Assembly (NCBI RefSeq): GCF_024494685.1
Contig: NZ_JANHDM010000001.1
Location: 372,001-436,000 of the forward strand
DNA length: 64,000 nt
Direction of reading: 5' to 3'
Source: Halorubrum rubrum
GTDB lineage: Archaea > Halobacteriota > Halobacteria > Halobacteriales > Haloferacaceae
The position numbers were made by a program, and so were the translations under genes. Each line of letters opens with the position of its first letter. The stretch's first letter is position 1. Positions 27,619 to 40,020 of this stretch are shown piece by piece. Under the pieces are notes generated by a model. The model was given only the letters and a program-made list of their open reading frames with translations, did not search any database and was not told the DNA's origin.

Positions 27619-28521
27619 ATGAACCTCAGACGCACGCTCCTCATCACGCCCGCCTCGGACGAGGACCTCATCCGGAAGGGACGCACGACCGACGCTGACG
27701 CGTTGTTCCTCGATTTAGAGGACGCCATCCTCTCGGAACGGAAGGTCCAGACCCGGAACGGCCTCGTCGAGTTCCTCGGCTCGGATCCCGAGATGGACAA
27801 ATCGATCGCCGTGCGGATCAACGCCGTCACCACGAAGTGGTGGTACGAGGACCTGATCGAGACGATCACCGCAGCCGGCGAACACGTCGACAGCCTCATC
27901 GTCCCCAAGGTGTCTCGGGTCGAACAGCTCCACGCCGTCGACCTGCTGTTGCGACAGGTGGAACGAAACGCCGGAGTCGAACCCGGCGACATCGGGCTGA
28001 TCCCGCAGCTCGAGAGCGCGACGGCGATCAACAACGCGACGCGGATCGCGCGATCGGTGGACCGACTCACCGCCCTCCTCTTCGGGCCGGGCGACTACGC
28101 GGCGAGCATCGGGGTCGGGCAGACGGGCGACGGCGGGGAGGTGGGCGGACACTGGGAGTACGCGCGTTCCCGAGTGGTGAACGCGGCGAGGGAGGTAGGG
28201 ATACAGGTGATAGACGGGATGTACCCCGACACCGGCGACACGCAGGGGTTCCGCGCGGCGTGTCAGGCGAGCCGCGCCCTCGGGTTCGACGGCAAGACCG
28301 TCGTCCACCCGAACCAGATCCACATCGCGAACGAGATCTTCACGCCGAGCCCGCAGGACGTTCGGCGCGCGCGCCGGATCTACGAGGCGTACACCGCGTC
28401 CGACCACGACGAGCCGGGGACCGTCGAGGTCGACGGACAGGTGATCGACGAGGAGACGTTCGAGATGGCCGAAGAGATCGTCGAGAAGGCGACGGAGGCG
28501 GACGAACTGACCGACCTCTGA
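27619..28521 (+). CDS. CitE/HpcH-type lyase or aldolase
   Basis: 300-aa TIM-barrel enzyme of the citrate lyase beta-subunit / malyl-CoA lyase family. It begins MNLRRTLLITPASDEDLIRK, has the metal region FLDLEDAI, substrate Arg in AVRINAV, the second metal segment GLIPQLESATAINNA, and LLFGPGDYAASIG. Such enzymes split or form 3-hydroxyacyl-CoA compounds (malyl-, citramalyl-CoA) or 2-oxo acids. It faces the IclR gene convergently (4 bp apart), so IclR may control this region. Exact substrate not decidable. Confidence 0.85.
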   Translation: MNLRRTLLITPASDEDLIRKGRTTDADALFLDLEDAILSERKVQTRNGLVEFLGSDPEMDKSIAVRINAVTTKWWYEDLIETITAAGEHVDSLIVPKVSRVEQLHAVDLLLRQVERNAGVEPGDIGLIPQLESATAINNATRIARSVDRLTALLFGPGDYAASIGVGQTGDGGEVGGHWEYARSRVVNAAREVGIQVIDGMYPDTGDTQGFRAACQASRALGFDGKTVVHPNQIHIANEIFTPSPQDVRRARRIYEAYTASDHDEPGTVEVDGQVIDEETFEMAEEIVEKATEADELTDL

Positions 28522-28525
28522 CGGC

Positions 28526-29329
28526 TCAGTGCGAGTGGACGTGCCAGGAGTGTTTCGGCGAGAACGTCGCGTGGGAGTCGTACCAGGAGGTGAGCGAGAG
28601 TTCGACGCGCTCGACCGCCTCGAGCAGGCGGTCGCCCGCCGAGAGCGGGCTGGCGGCGTCGCCGGGGACGGTCACGGTCAGGGCCCCCATGACGGCGCCG
28701 TCCCGACGGGAGAGCGCGCCCGCGAACGTCCGGTCGGAGCTCGTCGAACTCGTCTCGACCGCGTATCCGCGGCGGTGGATGCGAGCGAACCGGTCACGGA
28801 CCTCGTCGTCGACCTGGGGGGAGTCGGCGGCCTCGGCGGCGTCGTCGGGAGCCCCGTCGACGACGTCTCCGCCGTCGCTCCGGCCGTGCTCGGCGAGCAT
28901 GACGGGTCCCGCGATCGACTCCGTGAGCGGCGTTCGTTCCCCGAGGTGCCGTTCGGGGATGCCGGGGTAGTACCCTTCCTGGGCGATCATCGTCGCGTCG
29001 TCGCCCTCCTTGAGATAGAGGCGGACCACGCCGTCGGTCTCGGCCGCCAGCGACTTCATCTCGATCCGGGCCGCCTGATACAGCGGCGACTGGTCCCGGA
29101 GCCTCCCGCCGAGCCGGAGGAGCTTCGTCGAGACGTGGTACTGTTTGTCGTGGTGGGTCACGTACCCGCAGTCGACGAGCGTCGTCAGGTGGCTGTGGAC
29201 CGTGCTCTTGCTCATTTCGAGCGCGGTGGCGACCTCGGTGACGCCGGCACCGTCCTCTCGCTGAAGGAACTCCAGGATGGTGAGCGACTTCTCGGTGGTT
29301 CCCACCCGATTCCGCGATGGTTCAGTCAT
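28526..29329 (-). CDS. IclR family transcription regulator
   Basis: 267 residues: winged helix at the N-terminus (TTEKSLTILEFLQREDGAGV, TEVATALEMSKSTVHSHLTT) and an IclR effector-binding domain after ~80 (PLYQAARIEMKSLAAETDGV, SIAGPVMLAEHG). A Gly/Asp-rich insert (RSDGGDVVDGAPDDAAEA) interrupts the effector domain, and the tail is His-rich (SPKHSWHVHSH). IclR proteins usually control nearby catabolic genes; candidates here are the lyase, reductase, RraA-like aldolase and ABC genes. The ATG at 29329 sits within an inverted repeat. Confidence 0.9.
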   Translation of the reverse strand: MTEPSRNRVGTTEKSLTILEFLQREDGAGVTEVATALEMSKSTVHSHLTTLVDCGYVTHHDKQYHVSTKLLRLGGRLRDQSPLYQAARIEMKSLAAETDGVVRLYLKEGDDATMIAQEGYYPGIPERHLGERTPLTESIAGPVMLAEHGRSDGGDVVDGAPDDAAEAADSPQVDDEVRDRFARIHRRGYAVETSSTSSDRTFAGALSRRDGAVMGALTVTVPGDAASPLSAGDRLLEAVERVELSLTSWYDSHATFSPKHSWHVHSH

Positions 29330-29351
29330 ACATAACGATCGATCTATGTAT
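29328..29351. promoter_or_regulatory. Inverted repeat over the iclR start
   Basis: ATACATA (29328-29334) and TATGTAT (29345-29351) form 7-bp arms around a 10-bp spacer, overlapping the iclR start codon. The position fits negative autoregulation. Confidence 0.5.
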
Positions 29352-29772
29352 ACTAATCTGTTCGGATATGATAAATTAGTGAAGTGTGTGTTGCCGCGAT
29401 CGGATCCGATCGAGGACGAGGACGGTGCGAACGCGGAGCCTGAACCGCGATACCGCATGGTCGTTCGGTATAGTCGAACGAGATCGTGAGATGGTTTCAC
29501 AACCCACGTCCGTATACGCGACGGAAAGGTCGTGAAACGGGGATACTCCGCCGAACGGACCGTTTCCACGGATCGATCGCCGGCGTAGAATCGAACGTGT
29601 TCAGCCATGCGGAACGGAATCGAGGTGGACGTGGTGAGAGAAGTTCGGTACCACGGATCAATGGCAGGCGACGGCGGGAGCGACGGACGGAACTCGAGGT
29701 GGCGGACGCTGTTGGAGCGAAACGGGAGGCGAGAAGGTTCGGAGCCGCCTTCGGTCGACCGCCGGCCGTCCG
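29352..29772. other. Intergenic region between iclR and the reductase gene
   Basis: About 420 bp. The first 50 bp are AT rich (GATATGATAAATTAG) and probably hold the iclR promoter. The rest has moderate GC and only frames without codon bias or family resemblance; I see no gene. Confidence 0.5.
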
Positions 29773-30591
29773 TCAGCCCGACCAGGTCGGCGCGTACGGC
29801 GGATCGTACTGTCGGTCGCGGCGGTCGATCCCGTCGATCCGCTCCAGCTCCGCCGCCGAGAGGTCGAGGTCTCGAGCCCGGACGTTGTCGACGATGTGAT
29901 CGCGGCTCGTCGCCTTCGGGATGGGGACGACGCCCCGGTCCATGGCCCACGCGAGGCTGACGCGCGCCGGGCTGACGCCGTGGGCGTCGGCGATCTCCGC
30001 GAGCTCGGGCACGTCGAGGACGCGTCCGTTTCCGAGGGGCGCGTACGCGACGAGGTCGATGTCGTGTGAGTCACAGTACGTCCGGAGCCGCCGCTGGGGG
30101 AGAAGCGGATGTAGCTCCACCTGGAGCGCGTCGATCGGAACGGCGGACGCCTCGCGCGCCTCGTCGATCTGGTCTGGGGTCATGTTACAGACGCCGAGCC
30201 GGTCGAAGAGCCCCTCGTCGTGGAGGTCGGCGACCGCGTCGAACGTCGTCTCCGGATCGTATCCGTCGGCGGGCCAGTGGACGGCGTAGAGGAGGTCGAC
30301 GCGGTCGACCCCGAGCCGGTCGAGGCACGCGCGCGCGTTCTCCGTGACGCTCTCCGCCGAGTAGTCGTCGGTGAACTTCGGGTGCAACACCTTGGTGGCG
30401 AGGAAGACGTCCTCGCGGTCGACGTCGGCCGCAGCGATCCCCTCGCCGACGGCGACCTCGTTCCCGTACGCCTCCGCGGTGTCGACGTGTCGATACCCCT
30501 CCTCCAGCGCGGTCCGGACGCTCCGGACGCAGTCGTCGTGGTCCGTGACCCGGTACGTGCCGAGCCCCGGCGCGGGAATGTCCGCGGTCAT
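29773..30591 (-). CDS. Aldo-keto reductase
   Basis: 272-aa NAD(P)H-dependent (beta/alpha)8 reductase. The catalytic tetrad is complete: Asp37 and Tyr42 (HVDTAEAYGNE), Lys67 (FLATKVLHP), His105 (YAVHWPADG). The C-terminal IPKATSRDHIVDN binds the cofactor phosphate. It may act on an aldehyde or 2-oxo acid of the neighbouring catabolic genes; the substrate is unknown. The RraA-like gene lies 76 bp upstream on the same strand. Confidence 0.92.
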   Translation of the reverse strand: MTADIPAPGLGTYRVTDHDDCVRSVRTALEEGYRHVDTAEAYGNEVAVGEGIAAADVDREDVFLATKVLHPKFTDDYSAESVTENARACLDRLGVDRVDLLYAVHWPADGYDPETTFDAVADLHDEGLFDRLGVCNMTPDQIDEAREASAVPIDALQVELHPLLPQRRLRTYCDSHDIDLVAYAPLGNGRVLDVPELAEIADAHGVSPARVSLAWAMDRGVVPIPKATSRDHIVDNVRARDLDLSAAELERIDGIDRRDRQYDPPYAPTWSG

Positions 30592-30666
30592 GCGAGCGAT
30601 TCACACATTCGGAACGGAGGTACTAAGTGTTATCCTCGTCGCGGCCCTCGCGCACGGATCCGACCC

Positions 30667-31350
30667 TCACACGTCGTCGGGCGAGTCGACGACGCGGACG
30701 TCCGCGTCGTCGATCAGGTCGTGAATGCCGAGCAGGTCGGCCAGGGTCTCCCCCTCGTCGATCCGCTCGCGCAGGGTCGCCTCGTGGTCGGCGATCGCCG
30801 CCGCGGCCTCCGCGGTGGCGTCGGCCGCCTCGCGCGGGACCACGGTGACGCCGTCCCGGTCGCCGACGACGACGTCTCCCGGCCGGACGGCAACGCCGCC
30901 GACGGAGACCGGGACGTTCACCGATCCGGGAGTCTCCTTCACCGCGCCCGCCTGCGAGACGGCCGCCGAGAACGTCGGGAACTCGCTCTCCGAGAGGTGG
31001 TCCACGTCCCGGACGTTGCCGTCGGTGACGAGCCCACCGAGCCCCTGCCGTTCCGCGTTGCGCGTGAGGAGCTCGCCCCAGACGGCCGCCCGACGCGACT
31101 CCGTGGCGACGGCGAGGACGTCGCCGGGCTCCGCCAGGTCGGACGCGAGGTGGACCATCGCGTTGTCGCCGGGGGGGACGCGGACCGTACAGGCGGGACC
31201 ACAGACCGTGGCGTCCTCGTTTACCGGCCCGACCTCCGGGTCCATCGCCGTCCGTTCCCCCAGCGCCTCGTGAACGCTCGCGGCGTCCGACTCGGAGAGC
31301 GCGTCGATCGTTTCCCGGTCCGGCCGTTCGAAGTCCCTCACGACGACCAT
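30667..31350 (-). CDS. RraA-like / 4-hydroxy-2-oxoglutarate-type aldolase
   Basis: 227-aa member of the RraA/HMG-CHA aldolase superfamily. It keeps the residues needed for metal-dependent aldolase chemistry: VTDGNVRDVDHL with the Arg-Asp pair and VVVGDRDGVTVVP. Class II HMG/CHA aldolases cleave 4-hydroxy-4-methyl-2-oxoglutarate (products pyruvate) or decarboxylate oxaloacetate. RNase E inhibition (true RraA) is unlikely in an archaeon. The location near a CitE-like lyase and an FAH-family gene favours organic-acid breakdown. Confidence 0.85.
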   Translation of the reverse strand: MVVVRDFERPDRETIDALSESDAASVHEALGERTAMDPEVGPVNEDATVCGPACTVRVPPGDNAMVHLASDLAEPGDVLAVATESRRAAVWGELLTRNAERQGLGGLVTDGNVRDVDHLSESEFPTFSAAVSQAGAVKETPGSVNVPVSVGGVAVRPGDVVVGDRDGVTVVPREAADATAEAAAAIADHEATLRERIDEGETLADLLGIHDLIDDADVRVVDSPDDV

Positions 31351-31425
31351 ACCCCCGCGTTTCGTCGACGGGTGAAGAACGTATCGGCGGTTTCACTCGC
31401 GAGAAGGGTCTCCGCCGTGAGAAGG

Positions 31426-31478
31426 GTGCTCGGAGAGGGAGCGTTCGGAGGAGAGTGCTCGGAGAGGGAGCGTTCGGA
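31426..31478. repeat. Direct repeat, 24 bp, two copies
   Basis: GTGCTCGGAGAGGGAGCGTT plus CGGA occurs at 31426-31449 and 31455-31478 (period 29 bp) between the UspA-like gene and the RraA-like gene, with no coding potential. Confidence 0.8.
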
Positions 31479-31518
31479 AGGGGTCGGTCGGCGGAGCACA
31501 GACCGCCGGACCGACCGC

Positions 31519-31965
31519 TCAGTCCGTCATCACGGTGACGACGGGACAGTCGACGTCGAGTAGCACGTCCTGGGTGATGCTCCCGAACAGCGCCTTCCCG
31601 ACGGGCGACCGGCGTCGACCGCCGAGCACGAGGTACCGCGGATCGATCTCGTTCGCGAGCGAGACGATCTCCTCGGACGGCTCCCCGACGGCCCCGCGCG
31701 CGTCGACGCGGGAGTTCTCGAACTCCGGAACCGCGTCGCGGACCGCGCGGCGGGCGAAGCGGGCGGCGCTCTCCTTCTCCTGGGTGATGGAGAGGTCGTG
31801 AAACCGCTTCGAACTCTCGATGGTTTCCTTGTGGTCTTCGAACTCGGACCGCGGAACGACGTGGAACGCCGTGACGGTATCGTCGTATCGCTCCGCGAGT
31901 TCGTAGCCGAGCGGGACGACACGATTCATGGCCTCGGTCTCGCCGACAGCTATCAGAACGGTCAC
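31519..31965 (-). CDS. Universal stress protein (UspA family)
   Basis: 148-aa Rossmann-like nucleotide-binding protein. The ATP-binding signature G-x2-G-x9-G-(S/T) is present as VLGGRRRSPVGKALFGSI, followed by the DVDCPVVTV strand. I use the GTG at 31965 because it restores the first beta strand (VTVLIAVGETEAMN) seen in all family members; the ATG 12 codons later would remove it. Role is general stress or regulation; the signal is unknown. Confidence 0.85.
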   Translation of the reverse strand: MTVLIAVGETEAMNRVVPLGYELAERYDDTVTAFHVVPRSEFEDHKETIESSKRFHDLSITQEKESAARFARRAVRDAVPEFENSRVDARGAVGEPSEEIVSLANEIDPRYLVLGGRRRSPVGKALFGSITQDVLLDVDCPVVTVMTD

Positions 31966-32128
31966 AGGCGTCGTGATCGACGCCCCCTGTAATATAGATT
32001 GGCCCCGACATGCCGGTAGAGCGCCTCGGACGCGGCGCGTGAAACCGGGTATTCGCGAACGAACGGGACGGTCGAGCCGTCCGCCGCGGGAAGCGTTTAT
32101 GTACGTACGGCGAACGGGTGGAGACACC

Positions 32129-32904: not shown

Positions 32905-32958
32905 ATGGCCAGTAACGGAGAGTGTGCCCACCATCGAGAGGTCCGCACAGACCAATGA
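32905..32958 (+). CDS. 17-codon leader ORF before the ABC operon
   Basis: ATG at 32905 opens a frame reading MASNGECAHHREVRTDQ and ending in a TGA that overlaps the permease ATG (ATGA at 32955-32958). It starts just after the predicted transcription start, so it would be read as a leaderless ORF and hand ribosomes to the permease gene by coupling. It could also sense an amino acid state; there is no run of one codon. It may be chance, but the exact overlap matches the other junctions of this operon. Confidence 0.45.
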   Translation: MASNGECAHHREVRTDQ

Positions 32959-33857
32959 GTATCGCTGACAAGGTTCACGCGTATCGCAACAGCGATCTCG
33001 CGATCATCGCGAGGCGTGCGCTCGAGAACCTCCTCGAAGAGCGGATCACGAGGGTCGCCTTCGTGATCCTGGCGATCATCCTGCTCATGGGTCTGATCGG
33101 TCCGGCGATCGCACCGTACTCGTACAACACCCAGCAGACGACCGACGACGGCGACCTGATGCGGTACGCCGAACCGTCGCTCGAGCACCCCCTCGGCACG
33201 AACGACCGCGGCGAGGACGTCCTGTCGCGGCTGCTGTACGGGGCGCGGGCGACGCTCATCACCGGACTGCTCGCCGGCGGCCTGATGATGACGATCGGGT
33301 TGACGGTCGGGATGACGGCCGGATACGTCGGGGGGAGGACGGAGAGCTTCCTCATGCGGTTCGTCGATTTCATGTACGGGATCCCCTTCATCCCGTTCGC
33401 GATCGTCCTCATCACGTTCTTCGGGGCGGGATTCTACACGACGGTCGCCATACTGGGGCTCGTCCTCTGGCGGTTCATAGCCAGGGTGATACGATCCCAA
33501 GTGCTCCAGATAAACCAACGGCCGTACATCATGGCCGCGCGGGCGACCGGGGCGAGCACCCCGTGGATCATGCGAAAACACATTCTCCCGAACATCGCGA
33601 ACATGGCCGCGCTGTTCTTCGCGATGGGCGTCGGGCTGGCGATCCTCGAGCAGGCCGGCCTCTCGTTCATCGGAGTCACGGACCCGTTCACGCCGACGTG
33701 GGGGATCATGATCCGGAACGCGAACCAAGCGGGTCGTATCGCCGAGGCCTGGTGGTGGACGTTCCCGCCGGGCATCATGATCGCGTTGACCGTGCTGTCG
33801 CTGTACCTGCTCGGTCGCGGGTACGAGGGAAGCAGTGACGACGAGGTGGTGGTGTAA
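32955..33857 (+). CDS. Dipeptide/oligopeptide-type ABC permease (DppC-like)
   Basis: 300-aa inner-membrane subunit. An N-terminal helix (RVAFVILAIILLMGLIGPAI) and OppC-N region with HPLGTNDRGEDVLSRLLYGAR precede the binding-protein-dependent permease domain; the coupling EAA loop is YIMAARATGASTPWIMRKHI. C-terminal EQAGLSFIGVTDPFTPTWG is typical of DppC. First permease of an operon with order C-D-F-(orf)-B-binding protein, which differs from the common A-B-C-D-F. Confidence 0.92.
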   Translation: MSIADKVHAYRNSDLAIIARRALENLLEERITRVAFVILAIILLMGLIGPAIAPYSYNTQQTTDDGDLMRYAEPSLEHPLGTNDRGEDVLSRLLYGARATLITGLLAGGLMMTIGLTVGMTAGYVGGRTESFLMRFVDFMYGIPFIPFAIVLITFFGAGFYTTVAILGLVLWRFIARVIRSQVLQINQRPYIMAARATGASTPWIMRKHILPNIANMAALFFAMGVGLAILEQAGLSFIGVTDPFTPTWGIMIRNANQAGRIAEAWWWTFPPGIMIALTVLSLYLLGRGYEGSSDDEVVV

Positions 33858-34901
33858 ATGACTGACCCAATACTCGAGTTCGAGGACGTCGACATTCGCT
33901 ATCGGACGGAGAAAGGAAACGACGTACACGCGGTCAACGACGCGTCGTTCTCGATAAACCGGCACGACTACTTCGGGCTGGTCGGCGAGAGCGGCTGCGG
34001 GAAGAGCACGATCGCGGACGCCATCGTCGGCGGCCTCGACGCCAACGGCGAGGTCACCTCCGGGACGATCCGGTACAAGGGCGAGGAGATCCAGGACTAC
34101 TCCGAGAAGGAGTTCAACCGGAACGTTCGCTGGAAGGAGATCTCGGTCATCCCGCAGTCCTCGATGAACAGCCTGGACCCGGTGATGAAGCTGAGCAACC
34201 AGGCGGTCGAGATGGCGAAGTACCACACCGACCTGACGAAGACGGAGGCGGTCGACCGGCTGCGCGAGCTGTTCGAGGTCGTCGGACTCTCCGAGTCGCG
34301 GATCCACGACTACCCGCACCAGTTCTCCGGCGGCATGCAACAGCGGGCGATCATCGCGTTCGCGCTGTACCTCCGGCCCAGCCTCATCATCGCCGACGAG
34401 CCGACGACGGCGCTGGACGTGATCATGCAAGACCAGATCATCGACTACATCAACGGGCTCAAAGACGACTGGGACATCAGCATGCTGATGATCACCCACG
34501 ACATCTCGGTCGTCTTCGAGAACTGCGACTCGATGGCCGTGATGCACGGCGGACAGGTCGCCGAGACCGGGAGCGTGGTCGACGTGTTCGACAGGCCCCG
34601 TCACCCGTACGCGATCCTGTTACAGAACGCGTTCCCGGACGTCCGGTTCCCGGACCGCGAGCTGGCGGTCATCGACGGCCACCCGCCGCAGCTTCGCGGC
34701 GAGGTCGACTTCTGTACGTTCGCCGACCGGTGCCCGTGGGCCAAACCCGAGTGCCGCGAGGGCGCGCCGGACCCGCAGGCCGTCGCCGGCGACGACGACC
34801 ACCAGGCCTGGTGTATCCGCGCGGACGAGATGGAGGAGCTGGCGGCCGACCACCTCGATCGGAACGCGACCGAGGAGAGCATCCTGGAGGGAGAACGATG
34901 A
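33858..34901 (+). CDS. Oligopeptide-type ABC ATPase (DppD-like)
   Basis: 347-aa ATPase. Walker [11 protein letters not shown]-loop [14 protein letters not shown], signature [16 protein letters not shown], Walker [14 protein letters not shown], and H-loop MITHDISVV. The C-terminal oligopeptide extension has Cys residues in [18 protein letters not shown] that in relatives bind an iron-sulfur cluster. ATG follows the permease TAA directly; the stop overlaps the next ATG by four bases. Confidence 0.93.
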
Positions 34902-35962
34902 GTGCGGACGAACCCGTCCTCGAGCTCGAATCGATGGACAAACACTTCAAGACGACCTCGAGCTTCGTCGAGACGGTCAAAGAGACCGTCTTCGGGGAGG
35001 GGCCGAAGCTCGTTCGCGCCGTCGACGACCTGGACATGACGCTCGAGCAGAACCAGGTCCAGGGCGTCATCGGCGAGAGCGGCTGCGGGAAGACGACGCT
35101 CTTGCGGACCGTGATGGGACTGTACGACCCGACGGGTGGGGACATTCGGTTCCAGGGACAGTCGACGAGCGAGTTCGGCAAGGCCGACTGGAAGGAGTTC
35201 CGCCGGAAGGTTCAGATCGTGTTCCAGGACCCGTTCAACTCCCTGGACCCGAAGTTCAGCGTCCGGCGGACGATCGCCGAGCCGCTGGAGATACACGACA
35301 TCGACTACGACCGGTCCGACATCGAGGAGATGCTGGAGAAGGTCGGGTTGACGCCCGCGAGCCAGTACATCCAGCAGTTCCCGAACCAGCTGTCGGGCGG
35401 GGAGAAACAGCGCGTCGCCATCGCCCGCGCGCTGGTCACCGACCCCGAGGTGATCCTCGCCGACGAGCCGTCGTCGATGCTCGACGTCTCGACGCAGGCG
35501 GAGATCCTCAACCTGTTGAACGGGTTGACCAGCGAGTTCGGCGTCTCGATGATCTACATCTCACACGACCTGTCGACGGTCTCGTACATCTGTGACGAGA
35601 TCAACGTCATGTACCTGGGGCGGATCGTCGAGAAGGCCGAGACCAGAGAGCTGCTCTCGGACCCGAAGCATCCGTACACGAAGGCGCTGATCCAGTCGAT
35701 CCCGATCCCGGATCCGCACCACGACCGCGAACGGGCGACGATCGGCGGCGAGCCTGGCGACCCGATCGACATGCCGGAGGGGTGTCGGTTCAAGACGCGC
35801 TGTCCGGAGCGGATGGACGTCTGTGACCACACGCCGCGCGACGTCGACCCCGACGGCGAGGGGGAGCGTTCGGTCGCCTGTCACCTCTACTACGACCACG
35901 AAGCGACGACCGGCGACGCGGAGGAGCCGGTCGAAGAACACACCCCGGAGACACCGACATGA
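34898..35962 (+). CDS. Oligopeptide-type ABC ATPase (DppF-like)
   Basis: 354-aa partner ATPase. Walker A GESGCGKTT, Q-loop IVFQDPFNSLDPKF, signature QLSGGEKQRVAIARAL, Walker B VILADEPSSMLDV, H-loop YISHDLSTV. C-terminal Cys cluster CRFKTRCPERMDVCD. GGAGGG lies six bases before the ATG at 34898, supporting this start. Tail is Glu/Thr rich. Its TGA overlaps the start of a small linker ORF. Confidence 0.93.
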   Translation: MSADEPVLELESMDKHFKTTSSFVETVKETVFGEGPKLVRAVDDLDMTLEQNQVQGVIGESGCGKTTLLRTVMGLYDPTGGDIRFQGQSTSEFGKADWKEFRRKVQIVFQDPFNSLDPKFSVRRTIAEPLEIHDIDYDRSDIEEMLEKVGLTPASQYIQQFPNQLSGGEKQRVAIARALVTDPEVILADEPSSMLDVSTQAEILNLLNGLTSEFGVSMIYISHDLSTVSYICDEINVMYLGRIVEKAETRELLSDPKHPYTKALIQSIPIPDPHHDRERATIGGEPGDPIDMPEGCRFKTRCPERMDVCDHTPRDVDPDGEGERSVACHLYYDHEATTGDAEEPVEEHTPETPT

Positions 35963-36078
35963 CTCGAAACGAGCCCAACGCGGACGCACGACCCGACGCG
36001 CAGCCACCGACGAGCAGCTCCGCGGCCGTCGATCACGTCGACGGTGGCGGTTCCGGACCCGGAGGTGACCGGTCGTGA
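35959..36078 (+). CDS. 39-codon linker ORF between dppF- and dppB-like genes
   Basis: Begins at an ATGA overlap with the DppF-like gene (MTRNEPNADARPDAQPPTSS…) and ends in a GTGA overlap with the DppB-like gene. The product is Pro/Ser/Gly/Asp-rich, without cysteine or predicted helix, and contains the ribosome-binding site of the next gene. It may keep ribosomes moving across the gap (translational coupling) rather than encode a working peptide. Unrecognised. Confidence 0.5.
   Translation: MTRNEPNADARPDAQPPTSSSAAVDHVDGGGSGPGGDRS
36061..36068 (+). promoter_or_regulatory. Perfect Shine-Dalgarno for the DppB-like gene
   Basis: GGAGGTGA lies six bases before the GTG at 36075, inside the linker ORF. 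This fixes the GTG as the start. Confidence 0.75.
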
Positions 36079-37073
36079 GCCGCCTGAGCTACTTCGTCCG
36101 CCGAACGGCGATAACGGTAGGGCTCATCTTCCTCGTGGCCTCGGCGCTGTTCTTCTTCTTCCGAGCGATGCCGGGAGACTACTCGTCGCTTCTGATCCAA
36201 CAGGGGATGAATCCCGAACAGATCGCACAGCTCCGGGCCGACTGGGGGCTGGACGAGCCGATATACGTCCAGTACTACGAGTACATCACCAACCTCCTGA
36301 CGGGGAACGCGGGCCAGTCCTTCCGCTTCAGCCAGCCGGTCTGGGAGCTCGTGGCCCCGCGCATCCTGAATTCGTTCGTGCTCGTCGCGCCGGCCATCAC
36401 CGCGACGTACATCGTCGGCGGACTGTTCGGCGCGTACATCGGCCGTCGCCGCGGGAGCCCGCTCGAGAAGTCGGGGATCATCTCGGTCTCCGTCTTCCAC
36501 TCGATCCCGGACTTCTTCCTCGGCATCATGCTGATCGCGCTGTTCTCCTCGACGCTGGGCATCTTCCCCACTTCGGGGATGCTCTCGCCGGCGACGATGC
36601 TCCAGGTCCAGGACCAGGCGTACTGGCAGCGGTTCCTGCTGCCGGAGTTCTGGCGGCACTACACGCTGCCGTTCATGACGGTGCTCCTGTATTTCATGCA
36701 GTACCCGACGCTGATAATGCGGAACAGCGTCGTCGAGGTGAGCGACCAGGAGTACCTCCACTACCACCGGCTGAAGGGGCTCCCGGAGTCGAAGCTGCTC
36801 CGGAAGATCATCCGGCACGCCTCGCTTCCGGTCATCACGCTGTACCCGATCTCGCTGGCGGCGTCGATCAGCGGGCTCGTCCTGATCGAGGTCGTCTTCA
36901 ACTGGCCGGGGATCGGCCAGCTGCTGGTCTCGTCGGTCCTGGCGCGGGACTTCCCCGTGATCCAGTTCGTGTTCCTCATCGCGGCCACCTGGGTCATCAT
37001 CGGGAACTTCCTCGTCGACCTCCTGTACGGCGTGCTCGACCCGCGCGTGTCCGTCGCCGGCGACGAGGACTGA
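36075..37073 (+). CDS. Dipeptide/oligopeptide-type ABC permease (DppB-like)
   Basis: 332-aa membrane subunit beginning SRLSYFVRRTAITVGLIFLV, the usual DppB first helix. ADWGLDEPIYVQYYEYI is the OppB-type periplasmic lead, HYHRLKGLPESKLLRKIIRH the EAA coupling loop, and LIEVVFNWPGIGQLL the conserved C-terminal region. GTG start with strong ribosome site. Works with the DppC-like subunit as a heterodimer pore. Confidence 0.92.
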   Translation: MSRLSYFVRRTAITVGLIFLVASALFFFFRAMPGDYSSLLIQQGMNPEQIAQLRADWGLDEPIYVQYYEYITNLLTGNAGQSFRFSQPVWELVAPRILNSFVLVAPAITATYIVGGLFGAYIGRRRGSPLEKSGIISVSVFHSIPDFFLGIMLIALFSSTLGIFPTSGMLSPATMLQVQDQAYWQRFLLPEFWRHYTLPFMTVLLYFMQYPTLIMRNSVVEVSDQEYLHYHRLKGLPESKLLRKIIRHASLPVITLYPISLAASISGLVLIEVVFNWPGIGQLLVSSVLARDFPVIQFVFLIAATWVIIGNFLVDLLYGVLDPRVSVAGDED

Positions 37074-37250: not shown

Positions 37251-39104
37251 ATGCCATCAAGTGGCAACCGCGTGGAGCGGAAGAGTATCGACCGTCGACA
37301 AGCGCTGAAAGTCATCTCCGTGGCGTCCGCCGCCGCACTCGCCGGCTGTGGCGGAAACGGTTCGGGGGGCGACGGCGGAGGCGGCGACGACGGGGGCGGC
37401 GACGACGGAGGCGACGACGGAAGCGGCGACGACGGAAGCGGCGACGGGGGCGGCGGTACCCCGGAGGGACTCGGCGAGCGGGTTCCCACGCTGACCTTCC
37501 AGTACTGGTCGGACCAGGGCCCGCCGACGATCCTGTTCGAGGAGACGATCTCGAGCATCCAGTCGGTCGCGTCGGACGTCGGCATCGAGATCGAGACGCA
37601 GCCGATGACGACCGCGGAGGGGATCACGGCGGTCGGCGACGACGTGCGCGACTTCCATCTAGCCGTGAACAGCCACGGACCGGACCCCGGACGGCTCGAC
37701 CCCAACGGACTGATGCAGGCGTACAGCATCGACAACGCCGGGTCGAACGGCCAGTACAACCCGTCGAACTACGCGAACACGGAGTTCTCGGAGCTCGCCG
37801 ACGAGCAGGCATCGATCGGGGTTCCCGACGAGCGCCGAGAGGTCGTCGGGGAGGCGATGAGCCTCTTCTCGGAGGACCTCCCGTTCATCCCGACCATCGA
37901 GCGGCCGACGACGGCGGCGATCAACACGGACATGGTCGAGCCGGTGGAGGCGGGCGGCGCGGGCCTCTCCGCGGTCAACTGGGCCGCGCTGGTCGAGTCG
38001 GGCGCACAGACGACGAGCGGCACCGACACGATCCTGGCGAACCTGCCGGGGGAGTTCCTCACGAGCAGCTTCTACCCGACCGTCGGGGACACCGACTCGC
38101 TGGGGCTGTACACGCAGCTGACGCACTCGCCGCTGATGCTGTACGACTCCAACTACGAGCGGGTGCCCGTGCTCGCGGAGGACTGGGAGGTCTCCGACGA
38201 CGGGACGGCAGTGACGTTCAACCTCCGCGACGCCACCTTCCACAACGGGGAGCCGGTGACCGCGACCGACGTCAAATGGACCTACGAGTTCCTGAGCGAG
38301 CAGTTCCACGACGGCCCCTACCAGTGGACGGACCTTCCCGAGGAGCTGACCGTCGAGGCCGTCGACGAGACGACGGCCCGGTTCGAGACGCCGGAGCCGG
38401 CGCCGACGCTGGTGACCGCACAGCTCCCGACGTTCGGCGTGCTGCCGCGTGACGCGTACGTCGACGCCGGCATCGAGGAGAACCCGACCGACTTCGAGGA
38501 CCCCATGATCGGCGCGGGTCCCTACGAGATCGCGACGTACAACAACCAGGAGAACATCGAGCTGGTGCCCCACGACGGGAACCCGGCGTTCGACGTCGAG
38601 TCGTCGATCATCATGTCGATCTACGACAGCGTCTCCGCGGTCCGCCGAGCCTTCGAGAACGGCGAGCTCGCCATCGCGGTGACGCTGACGCCCGACGCCG
38701 GCCGGCAGATCAGCGAGACGATGGGCGACACCGCGCAGATCGTCAACGGGGCGGCGTTCCTGCCGTTCGGCATGATGCCGCAGATGTCGTACGCGCCCGG
38801 CATGCACATGGAGTTCCGCCAGGCGCTCTCGCACATGGTCGACCGGGCGGGACTGAACGAGACGTACGCCTTCGGCGAGTCCGACGAGGTGACGTACTGT
38901 ACGTTCAACTCCCAACAGCACCCGTGGTACGACGAGGAGTACCTCAGCGAGGCCGGCCCGGAGACCCGCGACGTCGAGGCCGCCCGGCAGGTCCTCGAGG
39001 ACGCCGGCTGGGGCTGGGACGACGACGGCAACCTCTACTACCCCGAGGACGCGGACCTCGAGGCGTGGCCCGAGGGCGAGGAGCCGAACCCGGACGACTT
39101 CTGA
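37251..39104 (+). CDS. Substrate-binding lipoprotein, SBP_bac_5 family, circularly permuted
   Basis: 617 residues. Twin-arginine signal (SIDRRQALKVISVASAA) with lipobox LAGC (Cys33), then a Gly/Asp/Ser linker to ~75. Residues 78-240 match the C-terminal part of an ordinary peptide-binding protein: SIQSVASDVGIEIE, HLAVNSHGPDPGRLDP, YNPSNYANTEFSELAD, EDLPFIPTIERPTTAAIN. Residues 258-617 match the N-terminal part: VPVLAEDWEVSDDGTAVTFN, FHNGEPVTATDVKWTYEFL, FRQALSHMVDRAGLNE, EAARQVLEDAGWGWDDDG, and stop where the C-lobe would begin. The order is therefore reversed. All elements appear present, so the protein is probably functional. Substrate unknown. Confidence 0.9.
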   Translation: MPSSGNRVERKSIDRRQALKVISVASAAALAGCGGNGSGGDGGGGDDGGGDDGGDDGSGDDGSGDGGGGTPEGLGERVPTLTFQYWSDQGPPTILFEETISSIQSVASDVGIEIETQPMTTAEGITAVGDDVRDFHLAVNSHGPDPGRLDPNGLMQAYSIDNAGSNGQYNPSNYANTEFSELADEQASIGVPDERREVVGEAMSLFSEDLPFIPTIERPTTAAINTDMVEPVEAGGAGLSAVNWAALVESGAQTTSGTDTILANLPGEFLTSSFYPTVGDTDSLGLYTQLTHSPLMLYDSNYERVPVLAEDWEVSDDGTAVTFNLRDATFHNGEPVTATDVKWTYEFLSEQFHDGPYQWTDLPEELTVEAVDETTARFETPEPAPTLVTAQLPTFGVLPRDAYVDAGIEENPTDFEDPMIGAGPYEIATYNNQENIELVPHDGNPAFDVESSIIMSIYDSVSAVRRAFENGELAIAVTLTPDAGRQISETMGDTAQIVNGAAFLPFGMMPQMSYAPGMHMEFRQALSHMVDRAGLNETYAFGESDEVTYCTFNSQQHPWYDEEYLSEAGPETRDVEAARQVLEDAGWGWDDDGNLYYPEDADLEAWPEGEEPNPDDF

Positions 39105-39240: not shown

Positions 39241-40020
39241 ATGCGAAAGGTTAGATTTCGAGATCCGGCTGGATCCGTCCGTACCGGCGAGTGGACCGAC
39301 GACGACGAGCTTCGATTCGGCGAGGAGAAGTTCGACCCGTCGGAGGTCGACGTGCTTCCGCCGACCGAACCGAGCAAGATCGTCTGTGTCGGTCTCAACT
39401 ACTCGGATCACGCCGAGGAGACGGACTCGGAGATCCCCGACCGACCGCTTCTGTTCTTGAAGGGGCCCAACACGCTGGCCGCCCACGGGGACACGATCTC
39501 GCTGCCCGAGGGGAAAGAGCGGGTCGACCACGAGGCCGAGTTCGGCGTCGTCATCGGCGAGCAGTGTCGGAACGTTCCCGAAGACAGAGCCGAGGAGGTC
39601 ATCGCCGGCTACACCTGCGTGAACGACCTCTCGAACCGCGACGACCAGCGGAAAGAACAGAACTGGATCCGCGGGAAGGCCTTCGACAACGCCGCGCCGA
39701 TCGGGCCGGTCGTCGCGGACCCGGAACACGTCCCCGACGACGCGGAGATCACGCTGACGGTCAACGGCGAGGAGAAACAGCACTCCTCGATCGACAACCT
39801 GATCTTCTCCGTCCCGGAACTCATAAGCGAGATCACGAAGCTCGTCACCCTCGAGCGCGGCGACGTCATCGCGACGGGGACCCCCTCGGGCGTCAGTCCG
39901 CTCAGCGACGGCGACACGGTGGCGGTCACCGTCGAGGGCGTCGGCACGCTCGAACACGACATCGTCGGGGCGGGCGAGTTCTCCGGCGACGTGGACCACC
40001 GGTTCATGCCGAACCAGTGA
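39241..40020 (+). CDS. Fumarylacetoacetate hydrolase family protein
   Basis: 259 residues. N-terminal cap (residues 1-50) then the FAH domain: KIVCVGLNYSDHAEE, LFLKGPNTLAAHGDTI, metal ligands in VDHEAEFGVVIGE and VNDLSNRD, and GDVIATGTPSGV. Family members hydrolyse C-C bonds in acylpyruvates, isomerise or decarboxylate oxo-acids in aromatic or sugar-acid breakdown. Same direction as the transporter genes, which suggests it acts on the imported compound or its product; that is inference. Confidence 0.88.
   Translation: MRKVRFRDPAGSVRTGEWTDDDELRFGEEKFDPSEVDVLPPTEPSKIVCVGLNYSDHAEETDSEIPDRPLLFLKGPNTLAAHGDTISLPEGKERVDHEAEFGVVIGEQCRNVPEDRAEEVIAGYTCVNDLSNRDDQRKEQNWIRGKAFDNAAPIGPVVADPEHVPDDAEITLTVNGEEKQHSSIDNLIFSVPELISEITKLVTLERGDVIATGTPSGVSPLSDGDTVAVTVEGVGTLEHDIVGAGEFSGDVDHRFMPNQ

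Follow-up and report, generated by a model that had tools for sequence, protein, structure and literature searches.

A predicted natural circular permutant of the SBP_bac_5 solute-binding protein family in haloarchaea, and signs of repeated permutation within the family

Introduction

Circular permutants of binding proteins are mostly engineered, for use as biosensors. A natural permutant among the binding lipoproteins of ABC importers is TpMglB-2 (Tp0684) of Treponema pallidum, a cluster B protein for which a crystal structure and biophysical measurements showed that glucose binding and closure are retained (PMC4990184). It was proposed to represent a "Type Ic / Cluster Bc" present in a range of species, and tethering was raised as a hypothesis for its permutation (PMC4990184). 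For cluster C, the SBP_bac_5 proteins (Pfam PF00496) that include Escherichia coli DppA, we found no natural permutant in text searches of open-licence papers. As described for YejA, both termini of an ordinary cluster C protein lie near each other on the domain I sheet, so that joining them is feasible (PMC10924461). DppA itself clamps its dipeptide with Arg355 and Asp408 of the mature protein (R383 and D436 of the precursor) (PMC12136057).

Here, we describe a 617-aa lipoprotein encoded in a 64,000-nucleotide stretch of the Halorubrum rubrum genome (the window). Its sequence makes it very probable that this is a functional ABC-importer binding protein of SBP_bac_5/cluster C that arose from a circularly permuted gene. 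The protein resembles DppA in all its sequence elements, in PF00496 membership, and in being encoded with Dpp/Opp-type permeases and ATPases. It differs in the order of its parts, which is swapped, and in its anchor, which is predicted to sit on lobe 2 rather than lobe 1. TpMglB-2 was cut in its N-lobe and has the sugar-binding, MglB-like fold of cluster B, whereas the haloarchaeal protein belongs to cluster C, with the cut in lobe 2, and matches SBP_bac_5 only rather than cluster B (type I). The permuted C-terminal part of TpMglB-2 aligns poorly with MglB (13%), whereas homology could be demonstrated for both parts of the protein described here.

Layout of the lipoprotein

The open reading frame is intact, with an ATG at 37251 and a stop codon that ends at 39104. 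The features of the gene and its product are as follows:

37251 to 39104, forward strand: predicted circularly permuted SBP_bac_5 solute-binding lipoprotein (ORF; PF00496; C-part before N-part)
37251 to 37349, forward strand: Tat-type lipoprotein signal, residues 1-33 (direct reading)
37350 to 37481, forward strand: Gly/Asp-rich flexible linker, residues 34-77 (direct reading)
37482 to 37988, forward strand: residues 78-246, corresponding to the C-terminal part of an ordinary SBP_bac_5 protein, DppA mature ~346-505 (profile against the PDB; DppA alignment)
37989 to 38027, forward strand: residues 247-259, the new joint between the old C-terminus and the old N-terminus (DppA alignment; dN/dS)
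38028 to 39050, forward strand: residues 260-600, corresponding to the N-terminal part, DppA mature 1-~345 (PF00496; PDB matches; DppA alignment)

The signal contains a twin arginine (R15-R16) and the lipobox LAGC with Cys33, as read directly from the sequence, and R15, R16, A31, and G32 are invariant among nine orthologues. The Gly/Asp-rich linker that follows differs in length among orthologues. Both an export signal and a Dpp/Opp-type operon setting, as found for cluster C binding proteins, are present.

The two parts occur in swapped order

The original prediction held that the halves of a SBP_bac_5 protein are swapped in this sequence, and proposed searching each half separately. The second half is readily recognized: residues 305-595 match PF00496 (368 positions) at profile positions 3-286 (E 1e-48; 166.7 bits, against a Pfam cut-off of 32.4), and a phmmer search of the PDB paired residues 302-599 with residues 56-348 of 5isu. 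A single-sequence Pfam search with residues ~70-255 alone found nothing at E < 1, and in phmmer searches the first part paired weakly with a later stretch of the same structure (residues 103-214 with 5isu 360-464); the best stretch in 7ofw paired residues 111-217 with 393-496.

The assignment of the first part to the C-terminus of SBP_bac_5 rests on profiles. One built from residues 74-256 of the protein and seven relatives, and searched against the PDB, matched 67 sequences at E <= 1. The 60 matches listed were all SBP_bac_5-type binding proteins, matched in their C-terminal region (~345-518), and included the C-terminal fragment 3o6p; the best was to residues 366-518 of DppE (8ay0; E 2.4e-13). 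When the order of the two profiles was compared across proteins, the N-part came first in DppA and other ordinary proteins, and the C-part came first in the permuted candidates. The linear order of the solved members, from N-lobe part to C-lobe part, is therefore absent here, the C-part spanning residues 78-246 and the N-part residues 260-600. A paralogue in the same genome (L056/L057) likewise carries Pfam positions 287-363 upstream of positions 1-264 in a single ORF. Putting the protein computationally back in ordinary order returned the same two separate matches with barely changed scores; this is uninformative, as the divergence of the C-part defeats single-sequence searches, which leaves the profile as the informative test.

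An end-to-end alignment with DppA paired residues 260-~593 with mature residues 1-345, and residues 80-246 with mature residues 346-505. Every DppA element is covered, in agreement with the original claim that none is missing, and the boundaries given there (78-240 and 258-617) were accurate to a few residues. The cut separates the helix ending in EDAGW (KEAGL in DppA) from the strand that follows; the chain would begin and end in the lobe-2 loop behind the ARQVLEDAGW helix (DppA mature ~343). The old termini are connected by a joint of 13 residues. DppA Arg355 and Asp408 align with Gly90 and Gly147, in a region where the alignment is distant and Asp150 lies nearby.

Homology points to the two-lobed fold of cluster C. 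AlphaFold models of the whole protein (9 sequences) and of residues 77-617 (13 rows) had pLDDT values of 34 and 39, respectively.

A single gene appears to have been permuted

A swapped order could also result from the fusion of two truncated genes, with the first part derived from one binding protein and the second from another. To separate this from the permutation of one gene, we compared trees of the two parts. The N-only and C-only trees both grouped the main permuted family with the ordinary-order archaeal proteins L085 and L087-L089 (SH-aLRT 91 and 86), and in the combined tree this grouping was supported at 99/95. L085-L089, which read N then C where the permuted family reads C then N, are the nearest ordinary relatives in all three trees. 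As the trees of both parts place the same ordinary-order proteins beside the family, one gene is likely to have been permuted, rather than two fused. The main clade was imperfectly resolved in the C-only tree (2 changes), and any route through duplication includes a gene-fusion step; a two-gene chimera is nonetheless improbable and largely refuted by the shared relatives. In the separate case of the archaeal genus g99 (see below), moreover, each half is 81-89% identical to one and the same orthologue. Together, the swapped profile order, the full coverage of DppA, and the shared nearest relatives of both parts support the reading of the 617-aa protein as a natural circular permutant, and the swap put forward in the original prediction was borne out by all three.

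A second alternative is an ordinary-order binding protein that lost its C-lobe and carries an unrelated N-terminal domain. Pfam alone would allow this, as it covers only 3-286 of 368 positions and nothing in the first part. The matches of the first-part profile to SBP_bac_5 C-termini in the PDB (E down to 2e-13) and the complete coverage of DppA refute it, however, and we consider it very unlikely. An artefact of assembly or annotation, by swapped contig pieces or a frameshift, can be dismissed almost entirely: although the genome is a draft assembly (25 contigs), numerous independent genomes and plasmids, complete plasmids among them, show the same order, the single-contig archaeal genome G244 carries the separate g99 case, and the ORF is intact with low dN/dS. 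All three alternatives were considered and rejected.

Compared with three Halorubrum orthologues, each of the two parts had a dN/dS of 0.11-0.15, and the joint (residues 247-259) one of 0-0.18. The permuted protein is thus maintained by selection, and has long been conserved under purifying selection.

Operon context and likely substrate

The gene is the last of a putative importer operon:

32955 to 33857, forward strand: DppC-type permease (OppC_N, BPD_transp_1; Pfam; synteny in 8 loci)
33858 to 34901, forward strand: DppD-type ATPase (ABC_tran, oligo_HPY; Pfam; synteny)
34898 to 35962, forward strand: DppF-type ATPase (ABC_tran, oligo_HPY; Pfam; synteny)
36075 to 37073, forward strand: DppB-type permease (BPD_transp_1; Pfam; synteny)
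39241 to 40020, forward strand: fumarylacetoacetate-hydrolase (FAH)-family enzyme, directly downstream of the binding protein gene (PF01557, E 5e-67)

The order DppC-D-F-B followed by the binding protein gene is kept in all eight loci compared. The FAH-family gene adjoins the binding protein gene in three Halorubrum loci (L011-L013) and occupies other flanking positions in the remaining five; its product is a probable catabolic partner of the importer. Further genes at 27619-32028, together with that at 39241-40020, encode an HpcH/HpaI aldolase, an IclR regulator, an aldo/keto reductase, an RraA-like protein, and the FAH-family enzyme. These neighbors suggest that a sugar-acid-like compound, or another organic acid, is taken up and degraded, rather than dipeptides. 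Some of these catabolic enzymes are also encoded near the same importer in other haloarchaea.

Spread among haloarchaea and bacteria

In a scan of species genomes, eight full-length relatives (62-93% identity) were found in Halorubrum, Halorussus, Halegenticoccus, and Halalkalicoccus. Across 145 Halobacteria genomes, 139 had a match at E <= 1e-20, and by hand count among the matches listed, at least 87 had one that spanned model positions <= 95 to >= 540 in one frame. As no other order can give such a span, these are permuted full-length homologues, and the conservation in other haloarchaea that had been proposed as a check is thereby confirmed. In the window's own genome, five of the six SBP_bac_5 proteins are permuted. 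A divergent permuted binding protein of this genome (L052; G000:C18:61083-61946) has an extra insertion of ~65 residues between two segments of the N-part.

Collinear permuted homologues were also found on plasmids of Maritalea, Nitratireductor, Roseomonas, Ketogulonicigenium, Neorhizobium, and Microvirga, some of which are complete, and where annotated, their genes adjoin those for a transporter permease and ATPase. Judged by sequence, the permuted order is thus common to most haloarchaea sampled and to some bacteria, including alphaproteobacteria. The permuted proteins on a Nitratireductor plasmid (L059) and a Halalkalicoccus jeotgali plasmid (L097) are 38% identical over 98% of their length, a likeness that suggests gene transfer between domains. 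Among viral contigs, three scans yielded no relative and a fourth a single one.

A large class of binding proteins thus appears to hold an ancient and widespread permuted branch, where the natural case found otherwise belongs to a different structural class. NCBIfam models match the permuted proteins in pieces only, below their cut-offs. As Pfam and NCBIfam read this branch only in part, naming and functional inference by models of linear order are affected.

Proposed function and origin

We propose that the re-threaded chain folds into the usual two-lobed clamp and performs an ordinary binding-protein cycle, in which a small organic solute would be bound extracellularly and handed over to the DppB/C/D/F importer encoded beside it. 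The protein would be tethered by its Tat-exported lipid anchor through lobe 2 rather than lobe 1. The original prediction held that this moved anchor changes how the lobes sit relative to the membrane; the ~44 flexible residues that separate Cys33 from the fold weaken this suggestion, and a large effect on docking is not implied. The permuted proteins of alphaproteobacteria and spirochaetes, read directly, have signal peptides without a lipobox; with such non-lipidated permutants, membrane tethering cannot be the general reason for permutation.

The permuted gene may have arisen through a tandem duplication, after which copy 1 became fused to copy 2 and the outer parts were lost. No intermediate of this duplication-fusion route was found. 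The route fits the case in genus g99, where the new N-terminus still carries the signal peptide and linker, and the joint contains a linker that looks like a remnant.

Repeated permutation in the family

Genus g99, an archaeal genus of the same phylum, contains both forms, the permuted one in L102 (G236), L103 (G244), and L104 (G283), and the ordinary one in L106-L109. Permuted and ordinary orthologues share 81-89% identity in each half. The cut lies between '...AGYSE' and 'DNKLKLELWW', in the same loop as in the haloarchaeal family. At their new N-terminus, the permuted proteins have retained a signal peptide, lipobox, and linker that match those of the ordinary forms. Their joint reads '...RYYLVYSEEQKDTITIGVTDK', where the ordinary forms end in '...RYYLVYETT' and start with 'KEEVKALTIGVTDK'. 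The permuted gene lies divergently beside a transporter operon, a context unlike that of the ordinary forms, and no second close match was found in the genomes that carry it. From these sequences, the g99 case is best read as a recent natural permutation within one genus. With such a pair, nearly alike but with the order swapped, the effects of permutation on stability, ligand binding, anchoring, and docking can be tested directly by experiment. The pair is the best material for work on the mechanism and its consequences.

Placing all permutants with the same cut in one clade was rejected (AU p = 1e-47), and so was a grouping of L083 with the main family (p 1e-5). Joining L052/L084 (p 0.07) or the spirochaete group (p 0.18) to the main family was not rejected. 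The spirochaete proteins L019-L021 have another cut, however, before the RQAIAYAID helix near DppA 276; their first element is the 'DPRVRQAIAYAID' helix, and their last residues read '...RYTRLFFVNKFPKP'. As the cut site differs, a separate spirochaete rearrangement is required in any case. Spirochaete fragments were left out of the alignment, since their C-part was misaligned when included.

By these trees, at least two independent events with the same cut form a firm minimum, and three or four are probable, plus one with the other cut; the counts come from moderately sampled trees and are independent of the root, and trees alone do not distinguish gain from loss. The candidate events in the lobe-2 loop are probably those of the haloarchaeal/alphaproteobacterial family, of haloarchaeal L052/L084, of archaeal L083, and of L102-L104 within their genus. 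We therefore consider it likely that cluster C has been permuted repeatedly, in this loop and, in spirochaetes, in a loop near the hinge, and that an ancient permuted form prevails among the SBP_bac_5 proteins of the window's genome, and perhaps also among those of other haloarchaea.

The archaeal protein L083 (G303:C2:103732-105471) has an N-terminal signal and a C-terminal end that resembles a membrane anchor ('TPGFGVIAVIAG...RRRR'), which places its anchor at the opposite end from that of the haloarchaeal lipoproteins.
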